Below, piece after piece: positions 1 through 31,718 of a DNA stretch of 31,718 nt. This DNA is from a virus, in IMG/VR virus record IMGVR_UViG_3300037861_000049, positions 1 to 31,718 of that record; one strand, given 5' to 3'. Numbering within the stretch: the stretch's first letter is position 1; every line of letters starts with the position of its first letter. The notes under the pieces were generated by a model, which worked only from the letters and a program-made list of their open reading frames with translations, was not told where the DNA came from and ran no database searches. The position numbers were made by a program, and so were the translations under genes.

Positions 1-127
1 TAGCGGAATGCACGGGCTGACGTGCGAGTGCCTGCAAAACCGTGGAGCAACGGCTTGACCGCCGCCACATGCCGGGATCAGCTCCGGCCCGCTACCCGAT
101 GGCATGACCAGCGCCCGCAGCAGGGTT
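1..127. repeat. Terminal direct repeat, left copy
   Basis: These 127 bases are identical to 31592-31718. An exact 127-base overlap is what k-mer assemblers leave when a circular or circularly permuted genome is linearised, so this is probably an assembly overlap and not a biological terminal repeat. The genome closes here, inside the region read as a large structured RNA. Confidence 0.95.
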
Positions 128-250
128 CACCCTCGTGGCGCTGGCTGCTGGGTGCCGCGTGGGACTACGGGCTTGACAGCGGGCGGTTGTCCGACGCGCC
201 GAAATGGTGGAGGCTGGTCATGCGCGGGCGGCTCAAAAGCAAAGCCCAGC
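1..250 (+). ncRNA. Candidate large structured RNA, 3' part
   Basis: Continues 31261-31591 across the circle junction. Hairpins: GCACG/CGUGC (10-14 with 21-25), CCGU/ACGG (40-43 with 50-53), CAUGCC/GGCAUG (68-73 with 101-106) and CCAGCGCC/GGCGCUGG (108-115 with 137-144) enclosing AGGG-UUCA-CCCU (122-133). ACGGGCTTGAC at 167-177 is perfectly complementary to 31514-31524, and GGCTTGACC at 52-60 to 31513-31521, so the two halves may fold together. A GCCCAGC/GCUGGGGC hairpin (244-268, one bulge) may mark the 3' end; it has no U-tract. The alternative is coding: a GTG-started frame at 22-261 encodes 79 residues, and my hand count gives GC of about 66, 61 and 78 percent at codon positions 1-3, a coding-like bias, although it has many Trp, no clear ribosome site and no recognised family. 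Confidence 0.45.
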
Positions 251-271
251 GGGTTGAGTAGCTGGGGCGGC

Positions 272-595
272 TTAGTCAGGCGCTGGGATAACGGCCTTAG
301 CCTCTAACTCAGTCACTCTATTTTTTAGCGCCGCAGAGTAGGCCGATGCATCCTGCCAAACTTCATCGGCGGCAATGCATCTATTAGCCACTATGGTGAC
401 GTTTTGCGTCCTGCATTCCCCGATCTCCCTGCCGCATTCCCAGCACTGAACAGCCCACCATCTGTACGTTGAGCCAGGCCAGAGTCTGTAGCCTTTCTCG
501 CTTCCGCAAATCGGGCACGGAGAGAGCATTCTCGATTCTTTCACGCCACCACCCGACCTTTCCGCCTGAATGTTTGTTTTTTCAGTGTTGCTCAC
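272..595 (-). CDS. Lar-like zinc-ribbon protein
   Basis: A 107-residue protein with a zinc ribbon: C27-P-I-C30-G and C51-W-E-C54-G, followed by an acidic stretch with A-D-E-V-W. This is the layout of the Lar (restriction alleviation) family of small phage and prophage proteins; Rac Lar modulates host type I restriction. Whether this one does so is inference, since many relatives are annotated only by the zinc ribbon. The start is GTG at 593-595, overlapping the stop of the upstream gene by 4 nt (GTGA), which makes translational coupling likely. It is the last gene of the leftward operon and converges on the candidate structured RNA; no terminator is obvious between them. Confidence 0.7.
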   Translation of the reverse strand: MSNTEKTNIQAERSGGGVKESRMLSPCPICGSEKGYRLWPGSTYRWWAVQCWECGREIGECRTQNVTIVANRCIAADEVWQDASAYSAALKNRVTELEAKAVIPAPD

Positions 596-4922: not shown

Positions 4923-5326
4923 GCAGCCTTGCCCAAGCCCACCCGGGCAATCCACGCAGCAACGAAGTGATGCCTGGCCTGTCAGCGCGCGCAAAGGCAT
5001 TGCTCGCACCACGCCACCACCCGCAGTTCACGCGCGCTGTGCCCACGGTTGACGCCGCGCTGTGCTGGCCCGGTACGCAGATCAAGCGCAGCACCGACAA
5101 CGGCTTCACGCGCCCGGCTGGGCCTTCGGTGATGGCGCCGACACGCACAGCCCGCGAGCTTGCTGCCGACGAGTCCAAGCGCAGCGTCTACCTAGCTGAC
5201 GAAAAAAAGCCGCGCAAGCCACGCAAGACGGTTGCGCAGCTGCTGGCCCCCGCGCGCAACCCGATCCGCATCGACGGCCCAGCAGAAGCTGCGAAGCAGT
5301 TCCGCATCAAGCGGCCGACCAAATAA
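4919..5326 (+). CDS. Unknown basic early protein
   Basis: A 135-residue protein that I do not recognise. It is rich in Ala, Arg, Lys and Pro, with a basic stretch (D-E-K-K-P-R-K-P-R-K-T) near residue 95 and a basic end (K-Q-F-R-I-K-R-P-T-K); no membrane segment or catalytic motif is apparent. The ATG overlaps the stop of the ribbon-helix-helix-like gene, indicating coupled translation. Low complexity and charge suggest a disordered nucleic-acid-associated protein. About 93 nt without a gene follow, holding a hairpin. Confidence 0.6.
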   Translation: MSSLAQAHPGNPRSNEVMPGLSARAKALLAPRHHPQFTRAVPTVDAALCWPGTQIKRSTDNGFTRPAGPSVMAPTRTARELAADESKRSVYLADEKKPRKPRKTVAQLLAPARNPIRIDGPAEAAKQFRIKRPTK

Positions 5327-5362
5327 CGGTGGTTTGGCTGCGCCTGTTCAGCCACAAAAAGA

Positions 5363-5402
5363 AACCCACCTGTCAACGCTGCGCAAACAGCTCGGGTGGG
5401 TT
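5363..5402 (+). promoter_or_regulatory. Hairpin before the methyltransferase gene
   Basis: AACCCACC (5363-5370) pairs perfectly with GGTGGGTT (5395-5402); inside, GCTG (5378-5381) pairs with CAGC (5388-5391). No U-tract follows, so it is not a typical terminator. It ends 17 nt before the ATG at 5420 and covers a possible GTG start at 5396, so a role in translation control or attenuation is possible. Confidence 0.35.
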
Positions 5403-5419
5403 GTTCAAAACCTAGACGA

Positions 5420-6529
5420 ATGAACCCAGAAATTATGCACCCGACTTACGAATTTCACCCACTCGCCAACATTTTTCCTCTCATTGAGGGCAAGGCTTTC
5501 GAGGATCTGACAGCCGACATTGCCGTCAATGGCGTGATGGAGCCGGTGTGGCTCTATCAAGGCCAGATTCTTGACGGTCGCAACCGCTACCGCGCTGCTG
5601 CCGCTGCTGGTGTGGCTTTCCCTGTGCGCCAGTACGAAGGCGACAACCCAACCGCCTTTGTTGTCAGCCTGAATTTGCACCGCCGCCACCTTAACGAGTC
5701 GCAGCGTGCAATGGTGGCCGCGAAGCTGGCGAATTTAGAAAACGGACAGCACACAAGCTCTGCAAATTTGCAGAGCACAGCAGTAAGCCAATCCGACGCA
5801 GCAGAAATGCTGAACGTCAGCACGCGCTCGGTGGCATCGGCTGCAAAGCTGCTGGGCGACAACCAAACACCAAAGGAAGTCGCTCGTTTTGTAGAGGCTG
5901 GTTCCGTCTCAATCAACCTGGCCACGCAGTTTGCCGAGTTGCCGCAAGAGGTACAGCAAGCGGCCCTTGCAGCAGTTGCTGAAAGCAGCGAGCCCGCCAA
6001 AGAGGTGATGCGCGAGGCGGTGAAGGCTCACGTTGCCAACAACAGCGGCAATAACGAGTGGTACACGCCCAGCAAGTACGTTGAGCTGGCGCGTGAAGTC
6101 ATGGGCGGCATCGACACGGACCCGGCTACGTCTGAGGTTGCTAACCGGACGGTACAAGCCGCTCAGATTTACACCGCAGACGATGACGGCAGAACGAAGG
6201 TGTGGGCGGGCCGCGTGTGGATGAACCCCCCTTATGCGCAGCCGCTTATGGGCGACTTTGCCGAGGCGGTGGCCAGCAAGTTTGAGTCTGGCGAGATTGA
6301 GCAGGCCTGCATTCTCGTGAACAACGCGACAGAAACGCAGTGGTTTCAGCGGATGCTGGTTTCTGCAACTGCCGTCTGCTTTCCAAAAAGCCGAATCAAG
6401 TTCATCGACCCGGACGGGAAGCCATCAGGCGCGCCGCTGCAAGGCCAGGCCATCCTGTACATGGGCAGCAGCGTTGAAGCCTTTAAGCAGGCATTCAGCG
6501 CAGAAGGCCGGGTGCTTTCCAATGTTTGA
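5420..6529 (+). CDS. ParB-like / Dam DNA adenine methyltransferase fusion
   Basis: A 369-residue two-domain protein. Residues 1-145 are ParB/Sulfiredoxin-like, with I-L-D-G-R-N-R-Y-R-A (50-59) and a following helix-turn-helix (S-Q-S-D-A-A-E-M-L-N-V-S-T-R-S-V). Residues 210-369 match the phage Dam N6-adenine methyltransferase family: E-W-Y-T-P (213-217), D-T-D-P (232-235) and catalytic N-P-P-Y (269-272). It should methylate adenine in phage DNA, with the ParB-like part giving DNA binding or site choice. Start is uncertain: ATG 5420, GTG 5396 and ATG 5438 all lack a good ribosome site. A perfect 20-bp palindrome lies within the gene (5757-5776). The next gene, a probable nuclease, overlaps its end by 8 nt. 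Confidence 0.85.
   Translation: MNPEIMHPTYEFHPLANIFPLIEGKAFEDLTADIAVNGVMEPVWLYQGQILDGRNRYRAAAAAGVAFPVRQYEGDNPTAFVVSLNLHRRHLNESQRAMVAAKLANLENGQHTSSANLQSTAVSQSDAAEMLNVSTRSVASAAKLLGDNQTPKEVARFVEAGSVSINLATQFAELPQEVQQAALAAVAESSEPAKEVMREAVKAHVANNSGNNEWYTPSKYVELAREVMGGIDTDPATSEVANRTVQAAQIYTADDDGRTKVWAGRVWMNPPYAQPLMGDFAEAVASKFESGEIEQACILVNNATETQWFQRMLVSATAVCFPKSRIKFIDPDGKPSGAPLQGQAILYMGSSVEAFKQAFSAEGRVLSNV
5757..5776. repeat. Perfect 20-bp palindrome inside the ParB-Dam gene
   Basis: GCTCTGCAAATTTGCAGAGC is its own reverse complement over all 20 bases. It encodes part of the linker around residues 113-119 (S-S-A-N-L-Q-S), between the ParB motif and its helix-turn-helix. A ParB-type protein binding a palindrome in its own gene, as with parS, is possible; it could also be coincidence, since S-A-N-L-Q is a recurring stretch in this protein family. 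Confidence 0.5.
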
Positions 6530-6965
6530 CCAGCCCGCAGTGCGGGGGCAGATACAGCACCGGGAGCGGGCGCGTCAGATAGCTGAATTCAAGGGCCTGA
6601 CGTACAACAAGATCACGCCGACTGACTTGGACGGCTTCCTGGATTTTGGCGACAAGCTCTTCATTTTCATTGAAAGCAAATTCATCGCCACGCCCATATT
6701 GAGAGGGCAGGAGCTGGCTATCGAGCGGCTTTGTGACGGCACCCACTGCCCGCCGCGCCGCTATGCCTTTGCCATCGTTGCCGACCACTGCCACCCGGTG
6801 ACAGAGGACATCGAGTTCTCAGACATGACGGTGCGCAGCATCCGGCAAAACGGCGCATGGAATGCCCCCATGAATCGGGCCTTGACAGTGCGCGATGCCA
6901 TCGACCGCATGGTTGCCACCGTCGAAAACCGGCTCAAGCAAAAAATCTATCGGAGGGCAGCATGA
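6522..6965 (+). CDS. PD-(D/E)XK-like nuclease candidate
   Basis: A 147-residue protein starting inside the end of the methyltransferase gene (ATGTTTGA overlap). It has the active-site layout of the PD-(D/E)XK superfamily: T-D-L-D37-G-F-L-D, a beta strand K-L-F-I-F-I, then E51-S-K53, followed by a helix with G-Q-E-L-A-I-E-R. It would bind a metal with D37, E51 and K53. Physical coupling to a DNA methyltransferase resembles a restriction-modification pair, but a recombination or DNA-degradation nuclease is equally possible. Assignment rests on motif spacing only. Confidence 0.6.
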   Translation: MFDQPAVRGQIQHRERARQIAEFKGLTYNKITPTDLDGFLDFGDKLFIFIESKFIATPILRGQELAIERLCDGTHCPPRRYAFAIVADHCHPVTEDIEFSDMTVRSIRQNGAWNAPMNRALTVRDAIDRMVATVENRLKQKIYRRAA

Positions 6966-7729
6966 TTACCCGCGCGCCACGTCCGAAATCTAATTTCTAC
7001 ATTCTGGACAAGCGGATCAGCGAGGACGCGAACCTGTCATGGGCATCGCGCGGCCTGCTGGTGTACCTGTTGGGCAAGCCGGATCACTGGCAAGTCTCGG
7101 TGCAGGCGCTTATCAACGAAACATCGGCATCGTCGCACCCGCTGGGCCGGGACGGTGTTCGCGGGCTTATCACCGAGCTGATGTCGGCTGGCTATGTGCA
7201 GCGCACAGCAGCGCGCGGTGAAGGCGGGAAGCTGGCTGGTTACGACTACATCGTGGCCGAGACGTGTACCGCACCGAAGGCTGTTTTGCCGTCGCCGGTT
7301 TCACCGGGGCCGGATAAGCCGGGGCCGGTTGAACCGGGGCCGGTGAATCCCCCACTAGTAAGTATTGAAGAAGAAACAAGGATTGAGAAGAAAGCAAGGA
7401 TTGAAGGGGAGAAGCCCGCGCAAGCGCTGGCCATCCCCCCCGCTTTGCTTGCTGACTTTCTCGCTGTTCGCAAAGCCAAACGCGCCGGGCCACTGACGGC
7501 AACCGCGATCGCTGGACTACAGCGCGAAGCCGACAAAGCCGGGATCAGCCTGGAAGCCGCTGTGACCGCCTGCTGTGAATTTGGATGGCAGGGGTTCAAC
7601 GCCGGTTGGTACGCCGACCGCGCACCGAAGCCCGCCGCCATGACGGCAAACCGCCAAGCCCACAAGCACGCTGGCGCCGCCGCTGCGATCTGGGGCAATT
7701 CAACACCCAAGGAGTTCATTGATGTTTAA
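6962..7729 (+). CDS. Helix-turn-helix replication initiator-like protein
   Basis: A 255-residue protein preceded by GGAGG and overlapping the previous stop (ATGA). Residues 8-85 form a winged helix with the signature N-F-Y-I-L-D-K, S-W-A-S-R-G-L-L-V-Y-L-L and W-x-V-S, as in phage O-like and DnaD-type replication proteins. Residues 115-129 are a proline-rich linker made of P-G-P units, and residues 190-235 form a second helical domain. Followed immediately by a P-like gene, it probably binds the phage origin; such origins often lie within the O gene, and the GC-rich 15-bp repeats encoding the linker (about 7302-7352) are a candidate, though the match is weak. Confidence 0.7.
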   Translation: MITRAPRPKSNFYILDKRISEDANLSWASRGLLVYLLGKPDHWQVSVQALINETSASSHPLGRDGVRGLITELMSAGYVQRTAARGEGGKLAGYDYIVAETCTAPKAVLPSPVSPGPDKPGPVEPGPVNPPLVSIEEETRIEKKARIEGEKPAQALAIPPALLADFLAVRKAKRAGPLTATAIAGLQREADKAGISLEAAVTACCEFGWQGFNAGWYADRAPKPAAMTANRQAHKHAGAAAAIWGNSTPKEFIDV

Positions 7730-31259: not shown

Positions 31260-31260
31260 T

Positions 31261-31591
31261 ATGGCATAATGCGCACCAGTGGCGCATGAGTGCCATCACA
31301 AAAGCCGAAGGCGAGAAAAGTCGAAGATCGCAGGCAGCACACTTCGGTGTGTCCAGGGCGCAGCCAGAAATGGAGCAAGCGCCCGCACAGCAGCGAACGC
31401 ACTGCCGGTTTTTGTGATGGTCGGCATGAGTGCTATCAAGAGGGCTCATTGTCTGGCTCGTAGCCAGGACGGGCACGTAGTGTCCGGATGGGATTCAGTG
31501 AGCCACCTTGATGGTCAAGCCCGTAAATAGCCTACCCGGCCCCAAGGAACGGTATCAAAGTCGGTGCAATCCGATGCTGCCATCAACTTTT
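31261..31591 (+). ncRNA. Candidate large structured RNA, 5' part
   Basis: No convincing reading frame lies here, but strong helices do. A 15-bp helix pairs 31293-31307 with 31406-31420, with one G-U pair; inside it are a CACAC-UUCG-GUGUG hairpin (31338-31351), a GGGCGC/GCGCCC stem (31356-31361 with 31379-31384) and a CCA-GAAA-UGG hairpin (31364-31373). A second domain pairs 31433-31440 with 31507-31514 and 31443-31451 with 31496-31504, and holds two hairpins with 3-nt loops (31454-31466 and 31471-31485). A 6-bp hairpin lies at 31269-31287. The wobble pairs become A-C mismatches on the other strand, and the C(UUCG)G tetraloop also fits the plus strand. It continues across the circle junction into 1-250. 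It lies downstream of the lysis genes with no terminator between, so it is probably transcribed late. Giant phage RNAs such as GOLLD and ROOL are possible analogues, but I cannot assign a family. Confidence 0.6.
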
Positions 31592-31718
31592 TAGCGGAAT
31601 GCACGGGCTGACGTGCGAGTGCCTGCAAAACCGTGGAGCAACGGCTTGACCGCCGCCACATGCCGGGATCAGCTCCGGCCCGCTACCCGATGGCATGACC
31701 AGCGCCCGCAGCAGGGTT
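31592..31718. repeat. Terminal direct repeat, right copy
   Basis: Exact copy of bases 1-127. Removing one copy leaves a 31,591-bp circle. The join places the end of the lysis cassette (Rz ends at 31259) about 600 nt before the end of the convergent Lar-like gene (272). Confidence 0.95.

Follow-up and report, generated by a model that had tools for sequence, protein, structure and literature searches.

The window, by which we mean the whole stretch of 31,718 nucleotides analysed in the present study, is a circular phage contig in which positions 1-127 are exactly identical to positions 31592-31718. A 127-base terminal repeat is the usual trace of an assembled circle, and the word length of the assembler was presumably its source. 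Since the two ends are identical, the contig is circular, positions 52-60 are the same DNA as 31643-31651, and 31260-31718 runs straight into 128-271 as one region. A single intergenic region of 603 nt spans the joint of the circle, between the end of the Rz frame (31259) and the frame 272-595. The latter is opposite in orientation to the Rz/lysis side, and the RNA region described below comes after the last lysis gene. The gene content of the phage includes a P22-like portal, a terminase, and a lysozyme. The fold energy of the region was 4.25 SD below that of shuffles. The following features were assigned to the region and its edges.

31293-31420, plus strand: upstream domain A, closed by CCATCACAAAA / TTTTGTGATGG (11 bp)
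31443-31504, plus strand: three-way-junction-like module GGCTCATTG..CAGTGAGCC; L002 has a different module in its place
31508-31586, plus strand: module B, closed by TTGATGG/CCATCAA; holds 31513-31524, the strand singled out in the earlier note; two copies in L001
31592-31685, plus strand: RNA core, 94 nt (cmsearch with model R2, 68.5 bits, E 5.9e-18, this core type having been among the sequences that built R2; covariation on 61 rows, 60 distinct)
1-94, plus strand: duplicate of the RNA core in the terminal repeat of the circular contig (cmsearch)
31592-31597 (TAGCGG) with 31680-31685 (CCGCTA), plus strand: helix P1, the outer helix, followed by J (AAT)
10-25, also 31601-31616, plus strand: hairpin H1, GCACG-GGCTGA-CGTGC; 100% of cells paired, two pairs with double changes
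16-20, plus strand: kissing-loop bases of H1, GCTGA, pairing with the H2 loop at 78-82
26-70, plus strand: variable insert between H1 and H2, including 52-60, a pairing partner in the earlier note
71-88, also 31662-31679, plus strand: hairpin H2, GCCGG-GATCAGCT-CCGGC; four of five stem pairs with double changes; abuts P1'
78-82, plus strand: kissing-loop bases of H2, TCAGC, complementary to 16-20
108-144, plus strand: hairpin after the core, CCAGCGCC..GGCGCTGG; one G-C pair is A-U in L001 and L002
139-255, plus strand: integrase remnant 1, residues 164-202 of the L001 tyrosine integrase (79% identity, tblastn)
244-288, plus strand: integrase remnant 2, C-terminal residues 398-412, with an internal stop (tblastn)

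The close relatives L001 and L002 were obtained by a lysozyme-based search, and a pattern from the most conserved part led to L140 and L142, with which the core was resolved. In the four-sequence core, 98% of cells were paired and 8 pairs carried double changes; none of 500 shuffles was as good. Helix P1 reads TAGCGG/CCGCTA, ATGGTG/CGCCAT, and GGGGCG/CGCCCC in different phages, and the H1/H2 loops read GCTGA/TCAGC in three sequences and GGTGA/TCACC in L142. The insert of the window subtype (GTGCCTGCAAAACCG..ACGGCTTGACCGCCGC) was invariant in the window, L001, L002, L140, and L142, and insert length across the family was 17-144 nt.

In a search of 400 genomes from the Comamonadaceae, the family to which G018 belongs, covariance model R1 detected four strong copies, and matches of approximately 31 bits or less were counted as chance. 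From H1 of these four copies, we derived a pattern that left one loop base free. The number of viral stretches matching it was at least 120, and 79 loci were kept. The core was confirmed by R1 and then by R2 in 50 of the 79 candidate phage loci (E < 1e-8). Since the candidates were picked via H1, their conservation of H1 reflects selection, while that of helix P1, H2, and the loop complement does not. Strong R2 matches (at least 55 bits) were present in 6 of 398 genomes of a phylum sample and 7 of 400 of a family sample.

In alignment A5 (61 rows, 60 distinct), which was fitted to a model containing P1, H1, and H2 and thus favours those helices, 99.2% of pair cells were standard and 13 of 21 pairs showed double changes. 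Double-change cells numbered 150, versus 35 in shuffles, and sliding by 1-3 columns as a control lowered the paired cells to 27-45%. The middle kissing pair, formed by the free H1 loop base and its H2 partner, is absent from R1 and R2. This pair was C-G in 35 rows, G-C in 13, and A-U in 12, without mismatches, and was Watson-Crick in 60 of 60 scorable rows versus 28 expected. It is the strongest comparative evidence for an RNA because H2 lay outside the search pattern. In a second set, A6 (18 matches), the exact 5-base loop complement was missing in four, two of which were weak matches. Comparison across relatives established an architecture in which helix P1 joins H1 and H2, their loops kiss, and the variable insert is held between them, with structured modules upstream.

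The structured-RNA reading of the earlier note was thereby borne out by compensatory changes in helices across relatives, though not in the two helices that it had named. It had proposed that 31513-31524 pairs over a long range with either 52-60 (9 bp) or 167-177 (11 bp), forming an RNA switch or assembly step. As a sequence, the 9-bp pairing exists: 31513-31521 (GGTCAAGCC) and 52-60 (GGCTTGACC) are complementary at every position. However, its strands are approximately 130 nt apart rather than 31 kb, 52-60 being the same DNA as 31643-31651. The second match is also present, but with a size of 12 bp (31514-31525 with 166-177). In dinucleotide shuffles of the 603-nt region, 9-bp matches occurred in 60% and matches of at least 11 bp in 5%; by this measure, nothing sets the 9-bp match apart, and the 12-bp match is only mildly unusual. 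The 9-bp helix is kept in L001 and absent from L002, where that copy of module B is missing. The partner of the 12-bp match lies inside the first integrase remnant, and in the intact L001 integrase gene the sequence at this site is ACGCGCTCGAC, so that complementarity is lost. Neither helix is conserved across both relatives; therefore, the two competing helices were rejected and the proposed switch fails.

Mutually exclusive helices do occur in part of the RNA family, with other strands and not in the window copy. In 20 of 76 cores, the 3' strand of helix P1 also has at least 9 perfect pairs with upstream sequence (0.1-0.2% expected). Since the upstream helix and helix P1 share bases, they are mutually exclusive or share a sliding boundary. 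In approximately one quarter of the members, helix P1 may form by strand exchange during RNA synthesis. The window copy, scored on row L134 with an identical core, has an upstream match of 5 bp only and thus lacks this arrangement.

Among the flanking modules, the stem CCAGCGCC/GGCGCTGG of the hairpin after the core becomes CCAGCACC/GGTGCTGG in both L001 and L002, a compensatory change. Between the window and L002, domain A is 99.4% identical and is thus better conserved than a 735-nt stretch also covering the Rz gene, which is 87.6% identical. A search of viral contigs with a module B pattern (CAAGCCCGTAAATAGCC) returned no more than the copies already known and three matches that arose by chance in unrelated sequence. 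Another module, approximately CAAGCAGGGTA.AGCCTGACAAC..GGGTG.AA..CCC..GCCA, recurs upstream or downstream of the core in L002 (5150-5337), L140, L201, and L251.

The core is distributed among phages and prophages of Pseudomonadota, beyond enterobacterial hosts. Named phages with the core are the Pseudomonas phages D3, PAJU2, Marin, Aurca01, and PS-1, Cronobacter phage ES2, the Escherichia phages P1 (two cores), HK620, and Bas78, and Klebsiella phage Magnus. The core lies in a tRNA array in D3 and phage P1, and in some loci on the same strand as the tRNA genes. The association with tRNAs is partial: of 41 viral cores, 5 have a tRNA within 600 nt, with 1.4 expected. By blastn, the ES2 RNA had matches in 1172 of the 5426 E. 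coli genomes, with 499 places on plasmids, a count that is a rough guide because most matches were short; only two of them (L305 and L306) were checked with the model. When the window RNA or the L001 RNA was searched against phages and plasmids by blastn, only short matches were obtained, among them one to Aurca01 (H27), which is the core on the opposite strand of the record. L141 fitted the core pattern by chance, within a gene, and was rejected. With a T placed in the loop of the pattern (GCGCAGTGTTGATGCGC), none of the sequences that matched gave an RNA match.

No match to the window region was found in Rfam 15, and Rfam searches of 13 further loci returned only tRNAs. At the loci inspected, the core is not annotated as an RNA, and some records have hypothetical frames or misplaced features lying across it. 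In Marin (L295, 2500-2654), annotated tRNA-Asn and tRNA-Thr overlap the core, and real tRNAs lie downstream. In D3 (L297, 2438-2752), orf86 overlaps the core, which is at 2531-2634. A further degenerate unit is apparently present between the two cores of the phage P1 array (L301, 1640-1760), where core sequence was placed at 1511-1639. In PS-1, a Proteo-phage-1 RNA (RF03044, 63.7 bits) was detected at L299 2264-2343, approximately 150 nt upstream of the core. This is also a phage RNA; however, it is a separate 82-nt motif that does not overlap the core. A literature search on the phage P1 region and on Proteo-phage-1 yielded nothing relevant.

We concluded that the region is almost certainly an RNA, as judged from sequence comparison. 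That it is a stand-alone modular non-coding phage RNA, neither a protein nor the proposed switch, has a probability of approximately 0.82, a figure that leans more on the RNA identity than on any scaffold role. We speculate that the RNA is transcribed along with late or tRNA-array transcripts and then excised as a discrete RNA, and that the kissing-loop clamp serves as a scaffold presenting the variable insert to a partner. It would most likely act in trans, as is presumed for the similarly built prophage sRNA STnc100. A trans-acting scaffold role is tentative, and we place it somewhat short of even odds. An RNA that is carried by classical laboratory phages and covaries this strongly is probably useful to the phage. 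Moreover, standard laboratory hosts support the growth of phages P1 and D3, and its role is thus directly testable. The core also provides a structural connection from STnc100 and similar prophage sRNAs to the other RNAs that reside in phage tRNA islands.

On balance, we favour the view that the cores form a phage-wide family outside Rfam, perhaps with STnc100 at one edge, defined by covarying kissing loops that clamp a variable insert, and represented in phages P1, D3, and HK620 and probably in many E. coli genomes, with strand exchange in approximately one quarter of its members. This novelty holds against Rfam 15 and the open-access papers searched.

A possible explanation, though one that we consider unlikely, is that the core is a divergent member of the prophage sRNA family STnc100 (RF02076), which is thought to be a small regulatory RNA. 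STnc100 is expressed and prophage-borne, and its function is unsettled (PMC5331693, PMC12370729, PMC13192938); transcription of one copy was detected on a Northern blot in EHEC (PMC5331693), and a shared origin of PasD and STnc100 has been proposed (PMC13192938). The two RNAs share a prophage location and a layout in which helix P1 (GGUG/CACC type) is followed by AAU and a first hairpin, and a variable part leads to a second hairpin that abuts P1'. This layout was found in A5, and helix P1 of the window itself is TAGCGG/CCGCTA. An STnc100-like unit lies in the same phage P1 array as the two cores, and the ES2 core aligns across the entire STnc100 model. However, the ES2 core scored 23.8 bits, the neighbouring phage P1 unit 33.9, and the Magnus unit 44.9, all below the gathering cut-off of 47 bits; the cores lie far below it, at 23.8 bits or without any match, and the window did not match the STnc100 model even at E 10. 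The loop sequences also differ, and the GNTGA/TCAN'C loop pair was not apparent by eye in the STnc100-like units of phage P1 and Magnus. Furthermore, hosts of the core extend beyond enterobacteria.

The core may instead be a cis-acting leader, namely, an element in the late operon or in a 5' UTR that controls antitermination or the gene that follows. The positions of the HK620 and ES2 cores, between Q and the lysis genes, agree with this, as does that of the L142 core, immediately ahead of a gene that has a Shine-Dalgarno-like sequence. However, the neighbours of the core are very diverse (dmt and tciA in phage P1, ssb, integrase, and tRNAs), and in the window the RNA comes after the last lysis gene, while the frame ahead of it runs in the opposite direction. 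A leader is less probable than a relationship with STnc100.

Large ornate RNAs of the GOLLD/ROOL kind, which assemble into RNA-only particles, share several properties with the core: they are phage or prophage RNAs with kissing loops and a variable linker, are often located by tRNA islands, and have an unknown function (PMC12286853). The core is likewise phage-borne and modular, with kissing loops, and at times lies in tRNA arrays. However, GOLLD and ROOL are much larger and differ in sequence and structure, whereas the core is small (approximately 75-200 nt) and stands almost alone in L142. The Rfam covariance models of GOLLD and ROOL did not match the window or the cores, and no Rfam match to any such family was found. 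The likeness is one of setting, and we regard membership in this class as improbable.

The packaging RNA of phi29 is another phage RNA with loop-loop pairing. Its loops pair between molecules, unlike the H1-H2 pairing of the core.

The other reading in the earlier note, a hidden small gene at 22-261, may be dismissed: the frame is open in the window, as stated there, and its composition appeared coding-like by hand count; however, it is broken in L002 by a 1-nt insertion within a hairpin loop and in L001 by a stop, a Pfam search of it gave no match, and its two halves are accounted for by the conserved RNA core and an integrase remnant. Sequence comparison therefore identifies 22-261 as RNA plus integrase remnant.

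The window retains just two pieces of the integrase gene (139-255 and 244-288). Downstream of the RNA region (4975-5540), L001 has a terminator-like hairpin, then a tRNA-like fragment, and then an intact tyrosine integrase gene (5885-7123) that matches PF00589. The tRNA-like fragment may be the attachment site. A deletion in the window phage took away the last module of the RNA and its terminator, together with the presumed attachment site and the greater part of the integrase gene, leaving the core intact. With its integrase reduced to two fragments and the presumed attachment site lost, the window phage may no longer integrate.

A type I-E-like CRISPR array was observed at L002 5577-5971 and L100 38-615, with a 29-nt repeat (GTGTTCCCCACAGGCGTGGGGATGAACCG) and 32-nt spacers, joined to the phage contig at both ends. 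One boundary spacer matches the phage RNA, with 27 of 32 bases at window positions 31561-31587 and 32 of 32 in the L001 phage; the other matches the integrase, and both matches have a 5' AAG. Since the boundary spacers match the phage RNA and the integrase, a phage-borne array in L002 was rejected; the L002/L100 array looks like a chimeric assembly formed via host spacers that target these phages.
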